Source: Candidatus Muproteobacteria bacterium RBG_16_65_34 (lineage in GTDB: Bacteria; Pseudomonadota; Gammaproteobacteria; Acidiferrobacterales; Sulfurifustaceae). Taken from it: a DNA stretch of 41,103 nt. Positions within the stretch are counted from its first letter, which is position 1. Each line of letters starts with the position of its first letter. Below, in pieces: positions 6,140-35,547 of the stretch. The DNA is taken from the NCBI GenBank assembly GCA_001785115.1, contig MFSU01000039.1:1-41103 (forward strand), written 5' to 3'. The position numbers and the translations under genes were made by a program. Below the pieces are notes generated by a model. The model ran no database searches. It was not told the origin of the DNA and saw only the letters and a program-made list of their open reading frames with translations.

Positions 6140-6907
6140 ATGCCACCAAAAACCAAAGCGCTTTATTTAACCCTCGCCGCGCTCGCCCTGATCCTCCCGG
6201 CGCGCGCCGCGGCGCAGGACGCCGCCACGATCGTGAAGACGGCGATCGACTACTGGCGCGACGTGTCGTCCTATTCGGTCGTGGACATGACCATCCACCG
6301 CCCGGACTGGAAGCGCACCATGACGATCCGTGTGTGGACCCGCGGGCAGAAGGAATCGCTCGTGCGCGTGAGCGCGCCCCCGAAGGACGCCGGCAACGCC
6401 ACGCTCCTCCTCGACAACGACATGTGGAGCTTCAGCCCCAAGATCAACCGCGTCATCAAGATCCCCTCGAGCATGATGAACCAGGGCTGGATGGGATCGG
6501 ACTTCTCCAACAACGATCTCGCCAAGGCCGACGACCTCATCGAGCAGTACACGCACAAGCTGCTGCGCACCGAGACGCACGAGGGCCGCAAGGTCTATGT
6601 GATCGAATCCACGCCCCTGGAGACCGCGCCGGTGGTGTGGGGGCGCGAGGTGGTGAAGGTCCGCGACGATTGGATCATCCTGGAACATGCGTTCTACGAC
6701 CAGCAGGATGCGCTCGTGAAGAAGCTCGTGACCTCCGAAATCCGGCCCATGGGCGGCAAGACCGTCGCCGCGCGCGAGCGCATGCAGAGAGCGGACAAGC
6801 CCGGCGAGTGGACCGAGGTGGTGACGCGGGAGGTGCAGTTCGGGATCGACGTGCCGGCGAGCATCTTCACGCTCGCCAACCTGCGCAATCCCAGGGAACA
6901 AAGGTGA
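6140..6907 (+). CDS. Outer-membrane lipoprotein-sorting protein (LolA-like, PF17131 type)
   Basis: This 255-residue periplasmic protein has a signal peptide ending ALILPARAAA|QD. The mature part matches the LolA-like family linked to ABC or RND exporters: AIDYWRDVSSYSVVDMTI, RTMTIRVWTRGQKESLVRV, PKDAGNATLL, MWSFSPKINRVIKIPSSMM and SDFSNNDLAKADDL. These proteins form a half-barrel with a hydrophobic cavity and are thought to carry lipids or lipoproteins across the periplasm. The gene precedes two FtsX-type permeases, a LolD-like ATPase and an outer-membrane barrel, all on the same strand. It therefore most likely acts as the carrier between inner-membrane extraction and the outer membrane. An inverted repeat element starts directly after the stop codon. 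Confidence 0.9.
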   Translation: MPPKTKALYLTLAALALILPARAAAQDAATIVKTAIDYWRDVSSYSVVDMTIHRPDWKRTMTIRVWTRGQKESLVRVSAPPKDAGNATLLLDNDMWSFSPKINRVIKIPSSMMNQGWMGSDFSNNDLAKADDLIEQYTHKLLRTETHEGRKVYVIESTPLETAPVVWGREVVKVRDDWIILEHAFYDQQDALVKKLVTSEIRPMGGKTVAARERMQRADKPGEWTEVVTREVQFGIDVPASIFTLANLRNPREQR

Positions 6908-7061
6908 AACCGCAGATGAACGCAGATGAACGCAGATCAATAACGCTGGTTCTTGTTTGGCGGCGCTACTGAAAACGACCGTGTTCTCAATGCGTCGAAC
7001 GATCTCACAGTATTGCGGGCTGATCTATTTTATCTGCGTTAATCTGCGTTCATCTGCGGTT
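6908..7061. repeat. Inverted-arm element of 10-nt units (cgcagatgaa family)
   Basis: The left arm 6908-6937 and right arm 7032-7061 are 30-nt inverted repeats with 29 of 30 positions matching. Each arm consists of three 10-nt units. The 94-nt spacer has no coding potential that I can see. The left arm begins immediately after the LolA-like stop codon, and the right arm ends 11 nt before the permease start. The permease therefore has no normal space for a Shine-Dalgarno outside the repeat. The same family recurs at 11577-11608 and 33196-33308. Confidence 0.95.
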
Positions 7062-7072
7062 CCAAGAATTAT

Positions 7073-8308
7073 ATGACTATTACCTTACGCCTCGCCTGGC
7101 GTAATCTCTGGCGCTACCCGCGCCGCACCTGGCTCACCGCCTCGGCGATCGCGTTCGTCACGCTGCTGATGGTGTTTCTCATCACGCTGCAGCTCGGTTC
7201 CTACGACCTCATGGTGGACAGCAGCCTGCGCATCTTCACCGGCCAGCTCCAGGTGCAGCGCGAGGGCTACCTCGACAAGCCGCAGATCCGCACCGTCGTC
7301 CCCGAGGCGCTTGCGCTCGCGCAGCGGATGCGCCAGAGCCCGGCGCTCGCGAACGTCGGGATCGCCGCGCGCGCCCAGGGGTTTGCGCTCGCATCGAGCG
7401 GGCGGCGCAGCTACGGCGTGCAGGTCGTCGGCGCCGAGCCCGAGCACGAACCGCGCGTCTCGACGATCCCGCGGTTGATGAAGTCCGGGCGCTACCTGTC
7501 GCGCCTCGATGCGCCGGAGGCGGTCGTGGGCGCGACGCTCGCGCGCAACCTCAACATCAAGGTCGGCGACGAGCTGACGCTGCTCGGCTCGGCCATGGAC
7601 GGATCGGTGGCGGCCACCGTCGTGCCCGTGGTCGGGCTGTTCGAAAGCGGCATGCGCGAGCTCGACCGCCAGCTCGTCGAGTTGCCGCTGCGCACGTTTC
7701 AGGAGACCTTCGGCATGGGGGACGCCGGACATGCCATCGTGCTCGTCGCGCCCGACCTCAAGGCGCTGCCGCAACTGCGCACCGCGGTGGCCGCTCTGCT
7801 GCCCGAAGGCCGGGGGCTGGTGGCGCTCGACTGGGAGCGGCTCATTCCGGGCCTGAAACAACTGATCCAGGCGGACTGGGCGAGCGGCTGGTTTACCTAT
7901 ATCGCGCTCATCGTGGTGGTCACCTTCAGCATCCTCAATACCTTTATTATGTCGGTGCTCGAACGCACGCGCGAATTCGGCGCCATGCTCGCGCTCGGCG
8001 CCACGCCCGCGCGCATCGGCGTGCTGGTCTTCTTCGAATCGCTGTTTCTCACGCTGATCGGGCTCGCCCTCGGCATGGGGCTCGGCCTGTTGGTCGCGTT
8101 CTATTTCTCCGTCTACGGCTTCACCTATCCCGGCCTCGCGGAGCTGATGGGGCAGTACGGGCTGCCCGGCCTGATCTACCCGAAGCTCTCGTTCGTCAGC
8201 GTCGCGCTCGGCCCGGCCGTGATCCTCGGCTTTGTCCTGCTCGCCTCGCTCTATCCGGCCCTGCGCATCCGCCGGCTCAACGCCGTGGAGGCGATGCACG
8301 CGGTCTGA
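7073..8308 (+). CDS. ABC transporter permease, FtsX/LolC-E family
   Basis: This is a 411-residue inner-membrane permease of the MacB/FtsX class. A basic N-terminus (LAWRNLWRYPRRTW) leads into TM1 (about 20-42). A periplasmic domain of about 220 residues follows, then three TM helices near 270-295, 318-345 and 372-395. The hallmark VLERTREFGAMLALGATPARIG lies between TM2 and TM3, and the C-terminus is LRIRRLNAVEAM. Such permeases extract lipids or lipoproteins from the inner membrane by mechanotransmission. It pairs with the permease 3 nt downstream, making a heterodimer (LolC/LolE-like) likely. The start follows a repeat arm by 11 nt and has no clear ribosome-binding site. Confidence 0.93.
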   Translation: MTITLRLAWRNLWRYPRRTWLTASAIAFVTLLMVFLITLQLGSYDLMVDSSLRIFTGQLQVQREGYLDKPQIRTVVPEALALAQRMRQSPALANVGIAARAQGFALASSGRRSYGVQVVGAEPEHEPRVSTIPRLMKSGRYLSRLDAPEAVVGATLARNLNIKVGDELTLLGSAMDGSVAATVVPVVGLFESGMRELDRQLVELPLRTFQETFGMGDAGHAIVLVAPDLKALPQLRTAVAALLPEGRGLVALDWERLIPGLKQLIQADWASGWFTYIALIVVVTFSILNTFIMSVLERTREFGAMLALGATPARIGVLVFFESLFLTLIGLALGMGLGLLVAFYFSVYGFTYPGLAELMGQYGLPGLIYPKLSFVSVALGPAVILGFVLLASLYPALRIRRLNAVEAMHAV

Positions 8309-8311
8309 TCC

Positions 8312-9541
8312 ATGCGCCTCGCCGACTTGCCGCTTCTCACGACCCTCGCATGGCGCAACCTCTGGCGCCACACCCGCCGCACGGCGGTCATGGTGTTCGC
8401 GCTCGCGCTCGGTGTCTGGTCGATGGTCACGCTGGCGTCGCTCGTCCGCGGCTCGATGGAGCAGCAGATCACCAAGGAAATCCTCAATCTCACCGGGCAC
8501 GCGCAGATCCACGCGCGCGCCTACCCCGACGATCCGGCGGTCGCGCATCGTTTCCGGCCCGCGCCCGCGCTCGATCAGGCGCTGCGGCAGAGTCCGATCG
8601 GCGCGTGGAGCGCGCGTGTGCGCGTGCCGGCCGTGGTCTCGAGCGAGCGCGAGTCCGCGGGGGTGATGCTGGTCGGCATCGACCCGGCCGGCGAGCGTGG
8701 GCTTTCGTTCATCCCGCAGGCCGTCACCGCGGGCCGCTACCTGGATTCGCCGGACGATCCGGGCCTGCTGCTCGGACGCAAGCTCGCCGAGCAACTCGAG
8801 ACCGCGTTGGGCCGGCGCGTGGTGCTGATGAGCCAGGACGCCGGCGACCAGATCGCCGACCGCGGCTTCCGGGTCGTCGGCATCTTCGACGCCGACCCGC
8901 AGGCGATGGAGACCGGCTACGTGTTCATCGGCCGCGGCATCGCCCAGCGGATGCTCAAGATCGGGGCCGAGGTGTCGGAGATCGCCGTGATGACGCCCGA
9001 CCGCAAGCGGCCGCAGGCCGCGGTGGCGGGCCTGCGCGCCGCCGCCGGCGACCTGGACGTCGCCCCGTGGACCGAGGTGCAGCCGCTGCTCGTGCTCACG
9101 GAGAAGATCAATAACGTGGTGCTGCTCATCTGGTTCGCGGTCGTGTTCGCGGCCATGGCCTTCGGGCTCGTCAACACGCTGCTGATGGCGGTGTTCGAGC
9201 GCACGCGCGAGTTCGGGTTGTTTCAGGCGCTCGGCATGCCGCCGCGCTACATCCTCGGGCAGGTGCTGATCGAGTCGCTCATGTTGCTCGTCGTCGGCCT
9301 CGTGCTCGGCAATGCCGCGGCGTGGGCGACCGTGGCAAGCTTGAAGGGCGGCATCGACCTCAGCGCGTTCGCCGAGGGTCTGGAGATGGTCGGCGTGAGT
9401 CCGGTGATCTATCCGGCGCTCGCCGGGAGCGACATGGCCGCGGCGAATATCATTGTCATGACGCTCGGCGTGCTGGCGAGCCTGTACCCGGCGTGGCGCG
9501 CCTCGCGCTACGTGCCGGTCGAGGCGATCACGAGGGTGTAA
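8312..9541 (+). CDS. ABC transporter permease, FtsX/LolC-E family (second subunit)
   Basis: This 409-residue paralogue of the preceding gene starts 3 nt after its stop. It has the same plan: LAWRNLWRHTRRTAVMVFAL leads into TM1, followed by a large periplasmic domain (GRYLDSPDDPGLLLGRKLAEQL region), and then three C-terminal TM helices around VFERTREFGLFQALGMPPRYIL. It ends ASLYPAWRASRYVPVEAITRV. The two permeases are clearly diverged outside these motifs, which favours a heterodimer. The ATPase gene starts 2 nt after its stop, and the ATPase ribosome-binding site (GAGGG) is inside this gene's last codons, so translation is coupled. Confidence 0.93.
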   Translation: MRLADLPLLTTLAWRNLWRHTRRTAVMVFALALGVWSMVTLASLVRGSMEQQITKEILNLTGHAQIHARAYPDDPAVAHRFRPAPALDQALRQSPIGAWSARVRVPAVVSSERESAGVMLVGIDPAGERGLSFIPQAVTAGRYLDSPDDPGLLLGRKLAEQLETALGRRVVLMSQDAGDQIADRGFRVVGIFDADPQAMETGYVFIGRGIAQRMLKIGAEVSEIAVMTPDRKRPQAAVAGLRAAAGDLDVAPWTEVQPLLVLTEKINNVVLLIWFAVVFAAMAFGLVNTLLMAVFERTREFGLFQALGMPPRYILGQVLIESLMLLVVGLVLGNAAAWATVASLKGGIDLSAFAEGLEMVGVSPVIYPALAGSDMAAANIIVMTLGVLASLYPAWRASRYVPVEAITRV

Positions 9542-9543
9542 AG

Positions 9544-10233
9544 ATGGAGCATACTGTTATCTGCCGCAACGTGAGCAAGATCTACCGCCAGGACGCCGTT
9601 TCGGTGCAGGCCCTGACCGACATCAACCTCGAGATCCCGCGGCTCGATTTTGTCTGCCTCTCGGGACCCTCGGGCTCGGGCAAGAGCACGCTGCTCAATC
9701 TGATCGGCGGGCTCGACAAGCCCACGAGCGGCGAGATCACCGTGGACGGAGCGCGCGTGGATCTTCTCGATAAGGGCGCGCTCGCGAAGTTGCGGCTGCA
9801 TCGTCTCGGCTTCGTGTTCCAGTCCTACAATCTGATTCCGGTGCTGACGGCGCGGGAGAACGTCGAGTTCGTCATGCAGCTCCAGGGCGTGCGCGCGGTC
9901 GAGCGCTCGGAGAAGGCGCGCGATATCTTGAAAGAGGTCGGGCTCGATGGCCTGGAGGACCGCCGCCCCGGCGAGCTTTCGGGCGGCCAGCAGCAGCGTG
10001 TGGCGGTGGCGCGCGCCATCGTCTCGCAGCCCTCGCTCGTGCTGGCCGACGAGCCCACCGCGAACCTCGACTCGAAGACGGCCGAGAACCTCATGCAGCT
10101 CCTGCGCCACATGAACCGGGAGCACGGCGTCACCTTCATCTTCTCCACCCACGACCGGCTCGTGATGGATTTCTCCCGCCGGCTCATCACGCTGCACGAC
10201 GGGCGGATCGTGGATGATCGGAAGAGAGAATGA
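9544..10233 (+). CDS. ABC transporter ATP-binding protein, LolD/MacB type
   Basis: This is a 229-residue ATPase. It has Walker A GPSGSGKST (about residues 40-48), GFVFQSYNLIPV, signature LSGGQQQR, Walker B LVLADEPT, D-loop NLDSKT and H-loop STHD, and it ends HDGRIVDD. This is the full length expected for LolD-type subunits. ATG 9544 is preferred over the longer frame open from 9322, which overlaps the permease. It completes a permease-permease-ATPase transporter. The next gene starts 1 nt after its stop, so the outer-membrane barrel is part of the same transcript. Confidence 0.95.
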   Translation: MEHTVICRNVSKIYRQDAVSVQALTDINLEIPRLDFVCLSGPSGSGKSTLLNLIGGLDKPTSGEITVDGARVDLLDKGALAKLRLHRLGFVFQSYNLIPVLTARENVEFVMQLQGVRAVERSEKARDILKEVGLDGLEDRRPGELSGGQQQRVAVARAIVSQPSLVLADEPTANLDSKTAENLMQLLRHMNREHGVTFIFSTHDRLVMDFSRRLITLHDGRIVDDRKRE

Positions 10234-10234
10234 T

Positions 10235-11560
10235 ATGAGTTTCCGGCGCAGAGGCGCAAAGACGCAGAGATATGACAGAAGAAAAAGCATTCGTTATCTT
10301 CTCTGCGTTCTCTGCGTCTCCGCGTCAAACAATCATATAACTCTCTCAACCGCGCAGGCCGGGGGCTGGGAGCTCGGCGGCCATATCAAGTACCAGTACA
10401 CGCATGCCGACTATCGCGCCGACGATCTCAACGCGGTCCTCGGCGCCGACCCGGCCGACGACCACGACCTCGATCTGCGTCTTAAGGCCGAGCGCCGTGC
10501 CGGGCCCTGGGATTTCGCCGCGCATTACGAGCTGCTCGGACTGGCCGGTGACACGCTCGAAGCGCGCCGACGCAGCGCCGCGCTCGGGCTGTCGGGTGCC
10601 GGGACCGTCACCGGTCTTCCGGACGATCGCCGGAGGCTCTTCGATCTCACGGGCGAGTTGGCCGATGGGGACCGCAGCGCGGCGGTGCAGCGGCTCGATC
10701 GGCTGTCCGCAGGCTACAGCACCGGGCGGCAGACAGTGCGCTTCGGGCGCCAGGTAATAAGTTGGGGTAACGGGCTGGTGTTCCATCCGCTCGACTTCGT
10801 GAATCCATTCTCCCCGATCGCGATCGACAAAGACTACAAGACCGGCGACGACATGCTCTACGGCCAATGGCTGGCGGGCGTGCAGGGCGATGTGCAGGCG
10901 GTGATTGTTCCCCGGCGCGATTCCGCGACGCGCGAAGTCAAAGCGCGGCAGAGCACCTATGCCGTCAAATCCCGCTCGCGTTTCAACGGGCTCGATCTCG
11001 ACCTGATCCTGGCGCGTCACTACGATGAAAACCTGGCCGGCTTCGGTCTCGTGCGCAGCGTCGGGGGCGCGGTGTGGCGCATGGATGTGGGTTATGCCGC
11101 CATCGAAGACGGCTCCAGCGCCGTTTCGCTGGCGACCAACGTGGATTATTCCTGGATCTCAGGTGGCAAGAATGTCTACGGCTACGCCGAGTATTTCCGC
11201 AACGGCTTCGGCGAGCGCGACCGCGCCCGATACGCCGCCCCCGATCCGGCGCTCGCGGCGCGGCTGGCCCGCGGCGAGCTGTACACCCTTGCGCGCGACT
11301 ACGCCGCGCTGGGGCTTCAGATCGAGGCTGCGCCGCTACTCAACTTCCACACCAACCTGATTTGGAACCTGAACGACGCCAGCCGGTTTCTCCAGCTCCG
11401 CGGCGTGTACGATTGGCGACAAAATACCGAGTTGAGCGCCGGCGTCAACTGGCCCGCGGGCGCGCGCGGCGATGAATACGGCGGCATCCCGGTTGGCTCG
11501 ACGAATACGTTCACCGCGCCCGCGCGCTCGCTCTACGTCCGGCTGGCGCAGTATTTTTGA
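10235..11560 (+). CDS. Outer-membrane beta-barrel protein with repeat-derived signal peptide
   Basis: This 441-residue protein is a predicted outer-membrane barrel. It has alternating amphipathic strands, a segment RFGRQVISWGNGLVFHPLD typical of porin-like export proteins, and a terminal RSLYVRLAQYF ending in the aromatic residue recognised by the Bam machinery. ATG 10235 lies 1 nt past the ATPase stop, with GAAGAGAGA upstream. The N-terminus is odd. Residues 4-31 of the approximately 42-residue signal peptide are translated from an 8-nt-unit inverted repeat. They give a strongly basic n-region and the hydrophobic run YLLCVLCVSAS, followed by a plausible cleavage at AQA|GG. The context suggests it is the outer-membrane partner of the upstream Lol-like transporter. 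Substrate is unknown. Confidence 0.85.
   Translation: MSFRRRGAKTQRYDRRKSIRYLLCVLCVSASNNHITLSTAQAGGWELGGHIKYQYTHADYRADDLNAVLGADPADDHDLDLRLKAERRAGPWDFAAHYELLGLAGDTLEARRRSAALGLSGAGTVTGLPDDRRRLFDLTGELADGDRSAAVQRLDRLSAGYSTGRQTVRFGRQVISWGNGLVFHPLDFVNPFSPIAIDKDYKTGDDMLYGQWLAGVQGDVQAVIVPRRDSATREVKARQSTYAVKSRSRFNGLDLDLILARHYDENLAGFGLVRSVGGAVWRMDVGYAAIEDGSSAVSLATNVDYSWISGGKNVYGYAEYFRNGFGERDRARYAAPDPALAARLARGELYTLARDYAALGLQIEAAPLLNFHTNLIWNLNDASRFLQLRGVYDWRQNTELSAGVNWPAGARGDEYGGIPVGSTNTFTAPARSLYVRLAQYF
10245..10326. repeat. Inverted-arm element of 8-nt units inside the barrel gene's 5' end
   Basis: The left arm (10245-10272) has units gcgcagag, gcgcaaag and acgcagag. The right arm (10295-10326) has the inverse units ctctgcgt, ctctgcgt and ctccgcgt. 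The 22-nt spacer is A-rich. This family is otherwise intergenic in the window (20546-20614, 2566-2590), but here it is translated as codons 4-31 of the barrel protein. Confidence 0.85.
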
Positions 11561-11576: not shown

Positions 11577-11608
11577 TAACCGCAGATGAACGCAGATAAA
11601 CGCGGATA
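11577..11608. repeat. Single arm of the 10-nt-unit repeat
   Basis: Three units related to cgcagatgaa lie 17 nt after the barrel gene stop. No inverted partner is found before 11663. The 347-nt gap 11561-11907 also holds a strong hairpin, a 19-codon ORF with a good ribosome-binding site and a CRP-like palindrome. These are listed separately. Confidence 0.8.
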
Positions 11609-12927: not shown

Positions 12928-13007
12928 GTTCAGGGATCGGGGATCAGGGATCAGGGGTCAGGGGTCAGGGGTCAGGGGTCGGGGGTCGGGGGTCGGGGGT
13001 CGGGGTC
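12901..13007. repeat. Heptamer repeats at the hypE start: gttcaaa arm and a (A/G)GGG(A/G)TC array
   Basis: 12903-12931 carries units of the gttcaaa/gtttcag family seen at 34729-34824. It is followed directly by ten 7-nt units at 12932-13001 plus a partial unit: AGGGATC, GGGGATC, AGGGATC, four AGGGGTC and three GGGGGTC. As at 2625-2778, variants are clustered in blocks. The first part is translated as the N-terminus of HypE. Confidence 0.9.
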
Positions 13008-20440: not shown

Positions 20441-20545
20441 GGGTAGGCGCGCCTTGGGAAAACGTATCCGCAGTCTGTCACAAAACCCCCGATGCGCAAA
20501 AACATCCACGCGCGCCACGGGATTAAGCAAGCTTATTAATATTAC

Positions 20546-20614
20546 TTGACGCAAAGGCGCAAAGAAAAACGGGGAAAACAGACCGCAAAAAATACCTTTG
20601 CGTCTCTGCGTCAA
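20546..20614. repeat. Inverted-arm element of 8-nt units upstream of hypF
   Basis: Arms 20546-20564 and 20596-20614 are 19-nt inverted repeats with two mismatches (units acgcaaag and gcgcaaag). It sits between the first SPW gene stop (20656) and the hypF start (20440), both on the minus strand, so it is in a tandem intergenic gap. Confidence 0.9.
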
Positions 20615-20655
20615 AAACTAATAGATAAGATTCCTTCAAGAAAACAGCGAAGCGT

Positions 20656-33195: not shown

Positions 33196-33308
33196 GTCCG
33201 CAGATTACGCAGATTTTCGCAGATTAAACCCAAAAAACAGGTAACCGCAGATGAACGCAGATAAACGCGGTGAAATTCATCTTTTGAAATCTGCGTAAAT
33301 CTGCGGAT
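33196..33308. repeat. Inverted-arm element of 10-nt units between hypD and hypX
   Basis: The outer arms (33196-33217 and 33286-33308) are imperfect inverted copies of ccgcagatttacgcagat-type units. A second, same-direction arm (33241-33272, aaccgcagatgaacgcag type) is nested inside, like the one at 6908. It fills the gap between the hypD stop and the hypX start. Confidence 0.88.
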
Positions 33309-34728: not shown

Positions 34729-34824
34729 GTTCCAAGTTCAAAGTTCAAAGTTTCAGGCTTATGGGACTGACCGAAATCGTGGGGCCGTTACGCCAACTTT
34801 GAACTTTGAACCTGGAACTTTGAA
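34729..34824. repeat. Inverted-arm element of 7-nt units (gttcaaa family), partly coding for the HypB tail
   Basis: The left arm 34729-34757 and the right arm 34792-34824 are imperfect inverted copies built from gttcaaa/gttccaa units. The right arm and spacer are read as the last 21 codons of hypB. The left arm lies just upstream of the hypC start. The same unit family forms the N-terminal codons of hypE at 12903-12931. Confidence 0.9.
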
Positions 34825-35547
34825 CTGTTGTAATTGACCGCGCAGCCATCCGAGCCAGGCATCGAGACCGATCCGTTTCTTCGCCGAGAGCTGAAACAGC
34901 GGCGCGGGGCTGGCGAGCGCGCGCAGGTTCGCTTCGGCCCGCGCCGGGTCGAAGTCATCGAGCACGGGCAAGAGATCGGCCTTCGTGAGCAGCACGAGGT
35001 CCGCGGCGCGGAACATCACCGGGTATTTGGCGGGCTTGTCGTCGCCCTCGGGTACCGAGAGCAGCACGACGTTGCGGTGCTGGCCGAGATCAAAGGCCGC
35101 CGGGCAGACGAGGTTGCCGACGTTTTCGACAAACAGGATGTCTGCGTCGTCGAGTGCCATATGGTGCAGGGCGCCGTGCACCATGTGGGCATCGAGATGG
35201 CAGGCGGTGCCGGTCGTGATCTGATAGGCCGGTACGCCCTTGGCGCGGATGCGGTTGGCGTCGTTCTCGGTTTCGAGGTCGCCCTCGATCACGGCCAGGC
35301 GCAGCTCGCCTTCGAGCGCCTCGATCGTCGCCTCGAGCAGCGCGGTCTTGCCCGCGCCGGGCGCGGACATGAGGTTCACCGCCAGCACCCCGTGCGCGTC
35401 GAAGTGTGCGCGGTTGTGCGCCGCCGCACGGTCGTTTTCGGATAAGAGATCCTTAAGCACCGTGACGGCGCTGCGCCCATGCGCGTCCTTCTCGTGCGCA
35501 AGGTGCGCGTTGCCGTGGGTTACGTTACAGCCGCAGGTATCACACAT
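34759..35547 (-). CDS. hypB: Hydrogenase nickel incorporation GTPase HypB
   Basis: This is a 262-residue SIMIBI GTPase that inserts Ni with HypA. The N-terminal metal motif is MCDTCGCNVT. The P-loop is SAPGAGKTALLE. The switch and metal-binding region is GDLETENDANRI, TTGTACHLDAHMVH and VENVGNLVCPAAFDLGQ. The guanine-specificity motif is TKADLL. The conserved protein ends near WLGWLRGQLQQ. The last 21 residues (FKVPGSKFKVG then VTAPRFRSVP) are encoded by a repeat arm and its spacer, so this is an acquired tail. ATG 35547 starts the metal motif. The upstream frame to 35679 is again repeat sequence. The gene lies between hypA and hypC with a repeat on each side. Confidence 0.95.
   Translation of the reverse strand: MCDTCGCNVTHGNAHLAHEKDAHGRSAVTVLKDLLSENDRAAAHNRAHFDAHGVLAVNLMSAPGAGKTALLEATIEALEGELRLAVIEGDLETENDANRIRAKGVPAYQITTGTACHLDAHMVHGALHHMALDDADILFVENVGNLVCPAAFDLGQHRNVVLLSVPEGDDKPAKYPVMFRAADLVLLTKADLLPVLDDFDPARAEANLRALASPAPLFQLSAKKRIGLDAWLGWLRGQLQQFKVPGSKFKVGVTAPRFRSVP

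Follow-up and report, generated by a model that had tools for sequence, protein, structure and literature searches.

The window analysed here, the whole stretch of 41,103 nucleotides, is contig 39 of a draft genome of 2.03 Mb (109 contigs, 75% complete). Between positions 6140 and 11560, genes for a LolA-like protein, two LolC/E-like permeases, a LolD-like ABC ATPase and a porin-like barrel protein form one operon (Table 1). LolD was the best NCBIfam match of the ATPase, with a score below the LolD cut-off, and the true ATPase start probably lies further inside its open reading frame. The barrel protein, 441 residues long when started at the ATG at 10235, had no family match in Pfam or NCBIfam profile searches. 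Its AlphaFold model (pLDDT 71.6, pTM 0.72) presents a beta-barrel from residue 45 onwards, and the 50 PDB structure matches listed were outer-membrane barrels, mostly porins and AlgE. The mature domain thus models as a porin-like outer-membrane barrel, and a protein of this fold must be exported to function. Beggiatoa relatives and bins carrying the label Desulfobacteria also have orthologues of the barrel, often right after the end of an ATPase-like gene. The operon possibly represents an uncharacterised lipoprotein or lipid export system.

Table 1. Features of the operon, of the palindromic element and of the N-terminus of the barrel protein (positions in the window).
Feature	Position	Strand	Basis or remark
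LolA-like protein	6140..6907	+	PF17131, E 5.7e-48
LolC/E-like permease	7073..8308	+	Pfam/NCBIfam search
LolC/E-like permease	8312..9541	+	Pfam/NCBIfam search
LolD-like ABC ATPase, open reading frame	9322..10233	+	ABC_tran, E 3.5e-34; stop codon 10231-10233
Alternative in-frame ATG	10214..10216	+	site of the relatives' ATPase-overlapping barrel start
Possible Shine-Dalgarno sequence GGAAGAGAG	10220..10228	+	sequence; 6 nt before the ATG at 10235
Whole palindromic element copy (termini, unit arms, loop)	10233..10338	+	74 aligned ends of 37 copies, same genome
5′ terminal inverted repeat ATATGAGTTTCCGG, holding the start codon	10233..10246	+	consensus (A)TATGAnTnTTYGM
5′ arm, three 8-nt units, coding the basic n-region	10247..10270	+	copy comparison, sequence
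Loop, coding part of the n-region and the start of the h-region	10271..10299	+	copy extraction
3′ arm, units spaced 9 and 8 nt, coding LCVLCVSA	10300..10324	+	translation, copy extraction
3′ terminal inverted repeat TCAAACAATCATAT, coding SNNH	10325..10338	+	terminus alignment
Predicted signal peptide, residues 1-42	10235..10360	+	score 0.999
TLSTAQA, the only signal-peptide residues outside the element	10340..10360	+	orthologue comparison
Mature outer-membrane beta-barrel domain	10361..11560	+	AlphaFold model, PDB structure matches
Second element copy, hypF leader, outside the protein	~20535..20624		contrast to the barrel copy

A palindromic element at the ATPase-barrel junction

The copy in front of the barrel gene measures about 106 nt and comprises terminal repeats of 14 nt, arms assembled from 8-nt units, and a loop. 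The arms of the inverted repeat were located at 10255-10285 and 10294-10324, and the RNA fold of this repeat reached -55.8 kcal/mol, compared to -32.4 kcal/mol in shuffled sequences (z = -6.3). The element termini also pair in the mRNA (window 10225-10345), which would place the barrel start codon within a long hairpin, and the opening of this hairpin may depend on translation coming from the ATPase gene upstream.

In the source genome, a 17-mer unit probe with up to two mismatches gave 94 matches, against 17 for the reversed control, and between 37 and 55 element copies could be delimited; they were gathered by pattern, so the copy list may be incomplete. The copies are built alike: behind one terminus stand two or three purine-rich units of 8 nt (CGCARAGR), then comes a loop that varies between copies, and the complementary pyrimidine-rich units (TCTYTGCG) lead to the second terminus in inverted form. 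Alignment of 74 copy ends revealed the terminus consensus at both ends, with conservation stopping about 13-14 nt outside the 8-nt units, which is why the element in front of the barrel gene was delimited as 10233-10338. No clear target-site duplication was detected outside the termini in these 74 ends. The many dispersed similar copies, the terminal inverted repeats and the presence/absence pattern at the orthologous site (occupied in the source genome and in its closest relative, vacant in other orthologues) characterise it as a REP/MITE-like element, probably non-autonomous and mobile or formerly mobile. No Rfam family matched the window, and the unit sequence had no match in the open-access papers searched. 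Among 399 genomes drawn from the phylum, an exact 25-nt pattern was found in the source genome only; either this pattern is too strict or the element family is local. The translated search detected element relatives in 26 of 60 near genomes and in 19 of 369 genomes of the class.

The N-terminus encoded by the element

The element copy codes residues 1-34 of the barrel protein completely, start codon included. The first 42 residues read MSFRRRGAKTQRYDRRKSIRYLLCVLCVSASNNHITLSTAQA, followed by GG, and the ATG at 10235-10237 sits at conserved positions of the 5′ terminal repeat. In the open stretch upstream, ATG, GTG or TTG codons in the frame of the barrel occur only at 10214 and 10235; because every in-frame start is upstream of or inside the element, the barrel is not translatable in frame without the repeat, and the repeat encodes its N-terminus. 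The preliminary description had assigned residues 4-31 to an inverted repeat of 8-nt units. The repeat itself was confirmed, while its extent had to be widened to residues 1-34, and re-translation returned the same basic n-region, the same YLLCVLCVSAS and the same AQA before GG.

The ATG at 10235 is the likeliest start, that at 10214 being possible. The former lies one base past the ATPase stop codon, and this spacing, together with the possible Shine-Dalgarno sequence, suggests that translation of the barrel is coupled to that of the ATPase. A start at 10214 would add seven residues upstream, and it may be the ancestral start, as relatives begin the barrel gene there. In the sister genome (G010, locus L002), the ATG matching 10214 meets a stop at once, and the terminus ATG is the sole ATG left, accompanied by one TTG within the element loop.

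A predicted Sec signal peptide

Signal peptides were predicted with a home-made logistic scorer of four features, trained on 30 exported and 94 cytosolic proteins of E. coli K-12, which in leave-one-out runs classified 29/30 exported and 92/94 cytosolic proteins correctly and which does not tell cleaved signals from membrane anchors. The barrel N-terminus, earlier proposed to be a working export signal, scored 0.999 from its own start. The corresponding N-termini in G010 and in a genome of another family (G045) scored 0.927 and 0.973, and element-free orthologues scored 0.86-0.995. The same protein deprived of the element scored 0.002.

The features of a Sec signal peptide of the signal peptidase I type are all found here, namely a basic n-region, an uncharged hydrophobic core and the motifs VSA30 and AQA42 at positions -3/-1. 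The LCVLCVSA encoded by the 3′ arm comprises the h-region plus the cleavage-type motif VSA. Cleavage could possibly occur after Ala30 (VSA), which is very near the core, or after Ala42 (AQA), which is 14 residues from it, a long distance. A Tat signal was rejected, since FRRRGAK lacks the FL of SRRxFLK and lies about 15 residues off the core, as was a lipoprotein signal, since the lipobox [LVI][ASTVI][GAS]C is unmatched and the cysteines are preceded by YLL and CVL. Judged from these sequence features, the element-encoded N-terminus is predicted to act as a Sec signal and probably does so.

Orthologues and a second origin

Orthologues were taken from 60 related genomes and GTDB contigs. About 25 of them, devoid of the repeat, carry ordinary, unrelated short signal peptides leading up to the same mature start, such as MRCLGRALLLVALAASAPAVADD followed by W. 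In the closest relative, G010, which belongs to another genus and whose protein is 73% identical, the element lies in frame between the same flanks (GAGAATGATATGA ... CATATAA), with the N-terminus MNSRRKGAKAQRSIGRKEQRDNKEKLFARFVLCALCVFATNDHIKSSAAAE followed by GW. The two element copies differ at 32 of 105 positions and by a 27-nt (9-codon) in-frame indel, the loop being longer in G010, and the hydrophobic core in G010 is at least as strong. Both proteins are sisters in the tree (support 99/95), so the most economical interpretation is a single insertion in their common ancestor.

At this junction, G045 carries a copy of different build, which also feeds a signal peptide. Its termini are CTCAACGC...GCGTTGAG, the start codon is located in the loop, and the N-terminus reads MVKSYLFTGFPLRLCAFALSFFLLPLVVVADD, followed by W; the gene is cut by the contig end, so only its N-terminal part was read with the leader. 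The tree requires two gains, and the three element-bearing sequences were united in only 2% of bootstrap trees. The element thus seems to have joined the signal peptide of this gene at least twice, with a separate origin in G045, as far as the sequences indicate.

The idea, put forward in the preliminary description, that the repeat had replaced the original signal is well supported by these comparisons: repeat-free orthologues are normal at the same junction, the relative from another genus keeps the element in frame, and G045 is independent. The orthologues begin at this same junction and do not start downstream in another frame, contrary to a possibility considered there. TLSTAQA is probably a remnant of the original c-region.

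The comparison also bears on the quality of the assembly. The source is a metagenome-assembled draft genome in 109 contigs and 75% complete, and repeats can cause misassembly, so the junction could be an artefact of assembly or binning. Yet G010, a genome of another genus assembled independently, shows matching junctions at either end of the element, and no break interrupts the reading frame across it, which makes such an artefact extremely improbable.

At the same ATPase-barrel junction, a genome of another genus (G014; L005/L029) harbours a different palindrome, CATCATTCCGCC...GGAATGATG, outside the signal peptide. The junction seems to attract small palindromes.

Possible maintenance of the reading frame

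Between the source genome and G010, the mature domain shows dN 0.19 and dS 0.97. It is under purifying selection, and therefore the gene is not the pseudogene that had earlier been considered as a possibility. At the codon level, no constraint on the element frame was shown, with dN/dS of 0.37 in the element-coded codons and 0.34 in the +2 frame. Under naive random substitution, the frame stays open in a fraction of 0.46, a score above 0.9 is kept in 0.14, and a core as hydrophobic as that of G010 is retained in only 0.006. The simulation is suggestive of a maintained signal, given an assumed ancestor and Leu/Phe-preserving transitions shared by the copies.

It could be argued that the element is translated as a merely tolerated extension, in which case the barrel would be poorly exported, if at all, and the gene would be heading to decay. 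The element-coded residues evolve faster than the mature domain and residues 1-42 have very low pLDDT in the AlphaFold model, as such a scenario would have it. Signal peptides are normally fast-evolving, though. Moreover, two genera share an intact barrel domain (73% identity, dN/dS about 0.19), and its only predicted signal is the one encoded by the element, so we regard mere tolerance as improbable.

A further alternative is that the repeat acts on the mRNA or DNA, as a terminator, an attenuator or an mRNA stabiliser between the ATPase and barrel genes, the coding being incidental. The hairpin is strong, the start codon is inside the stem formed by the termini, and most other copies lie outside proteins, for instance before hypF. 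On the other hand, the element is compulsorily translated here, and both the frame and the hydrophobic core have persisted in the sister genus, even though the sequence diverges by 30% there and the loop has an in-frame indel. A role in RNA or DNA with only incidental coding is accordingly very improbable, although RNA and coding roles may coexist.

Why the element suits signal peptides

The arms are reverse-complementary, and in either orientation the element reads first as a charged stretch (rotations of TQRRRDAE) and then as a hydrophobic one (rotations of LCVSASLR). As 8 and 3 have no common factor, all frames yield rotated versions of one peptide. The 9-nt unit spacing in the barrel copy results in LCVLCVSA, which is free of arginine. 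With the same tail attached to every sequence for scoring, 69% of element orientations offered one or more open signal-like frames; for dinucleotide shuffles the proportion was 11%, and for windows drawn at random from the same genome it was 19%. Swapping the halves lowered the proportion of signal-like frames from 29% to 16%. The element is thus predisposed to a signal-peptide role. Only 3 of 74 orientations start in the terminus, stay open as far as the other end and also score as signal-like; the barrel copy scores highest among them and the other two precede no recognisable gene. A signal reading requires a stop-free loop of suitable length, such as the barrel copy has.

In regard to the course of events, the best explanation, and in our view a probable one, is that an inserted element displaced the original signal peptide and now serves the export of the barrel. 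The element would have inserted at the tight junction of the ATPase gene with the barrel gene that follows it in the operon, displacing the original signal peptide of the barrel. Translation would begin at the ATG in the 5′ terminal repeat, the purine-rich arm would be read as the basic n-region, and the pyrimidine-rich arm as the hydrophobic core LLCVLCVSA, with the signal-peptidase-like VSA at its end. Of the old c-region, the seven residues TLSTAQA may still be present. The resulting peptide would then send the barrel via Sec to the outer membrane.

Comparison with known systems

The closest precedent is YPO1552 of Yersinia pestis, in which an RU-2 repeat codes residues 1-30 of a predicted 41-residue signal peptide, while relatives without RU-2 carry unrelated signal peptides (Delihas 2007; PMC2759123). 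In both cases a dispersed MITE-like repeat codes the start and most of a predicted signal peptide. The present case involves another element family and a conserved operonic outer-membrane barrel; two genera have retained the insertion, the same gene shows a second, independent origin, and the arms are predisposed to form n- and h-regions. The kind of event is therefore already known, whereas the element family, the conservation across genera, the second origin and the quantified predisposition are new.

Rickettsia palindromic elements (Ogata 2000/2002), as reviewed in PMC10969869, occur in frame in many genes and insert a conserved peptide into unrelated ones. They resemble our case as short palindromic repeats in frame within protein genes and differ in that our insert forms the very N-terminus, where it would assume a targeting role. 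In-frame fusions of REP/MITE elements (ERIC/RU-1, BOX and others) are reviewed in PMC10969869. The present element is likewise of high copy number, palindromic, mostly intergenic and occasionally fused to a gene, but its unit is unmatched in the open-access papers searched and has no match in Rfam.

In Enterobacterales, whole signal peptides are gained or lost between orthologues by insertion or deletion, and ISEScan found no transposable elements near the N-termini (PMC5952966). Here, by contrast, one element of transposable type, small and non-autonomous, does lie at an N-terminus, and an insertion-sequence finder would be expected to miss it. Gain or exchange of whole signal peptides has remained largely unobserved, and the survey for transposable elements found none (PMC5952966). 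In the barrel case, orthologues represent the states before and after the event, two genera conserve the insertion, the gene shows a second independent origin, and the suitability of the element has a simple structural cause. That palindromes of 8-nt units are portable, nearly ready-made signal peptides, whose spread is a recurrent and overlooked source of new or replacement export signals in bacteria, is a tentative and rather doubtful generalisation.

Other copies and repeats

The second copy in the window precedes hypF, whose product is cytosolic and begins downstream of it. Inspection of about 55 copies in the source genome and of 33 long-open-frame matches in relatives and the class yielded no other convincing case of an exported gene whose signal derives from a repeat. 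Where a long frame crosses an element, it mostly runs antisense to a real gene, or else the gene begins at or after the element end. Within this limited screen, the element often abuts gene starts, but leaders translated from it turned up only where the protein needs export. Annotators could mistake open frames that extend from an element into a cytosolic gene (hypF, hisC, maf) for exported proteins.

The starts of several apparently cytosolic genes, which we take to be maf, hisC (in two families), gatB, purD and hisI from their protein starts without a family search, are located at or just past the outer end of the element (L144, L146, L148, L059, L105, L060), an end whose sequence is often CATATG. 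Apparently the element either inserts at start codons or provides them.

The window also contains another dispersed repeat built on CGCAGATGAACGCAGATAAACGCGGAT, with units resembling 10-mers, at 6911-6937, 7032-7058, 11581-11607 and 33246-33272 (four occurrences, against none expected in shuffles), one of which follows the stop of the barrel gene. Finally, heptanucleotide tandem arrays (GCCCATA/GCCGATA, GCTAAAG, TCAGGGG and AACTTTG) occupy 2624-2780, 12930-13007 and 34795-34826. At 2624-2780, two different heptamer arrays directly adjoin each other, and a half element lies nearby at about 2555-2590.
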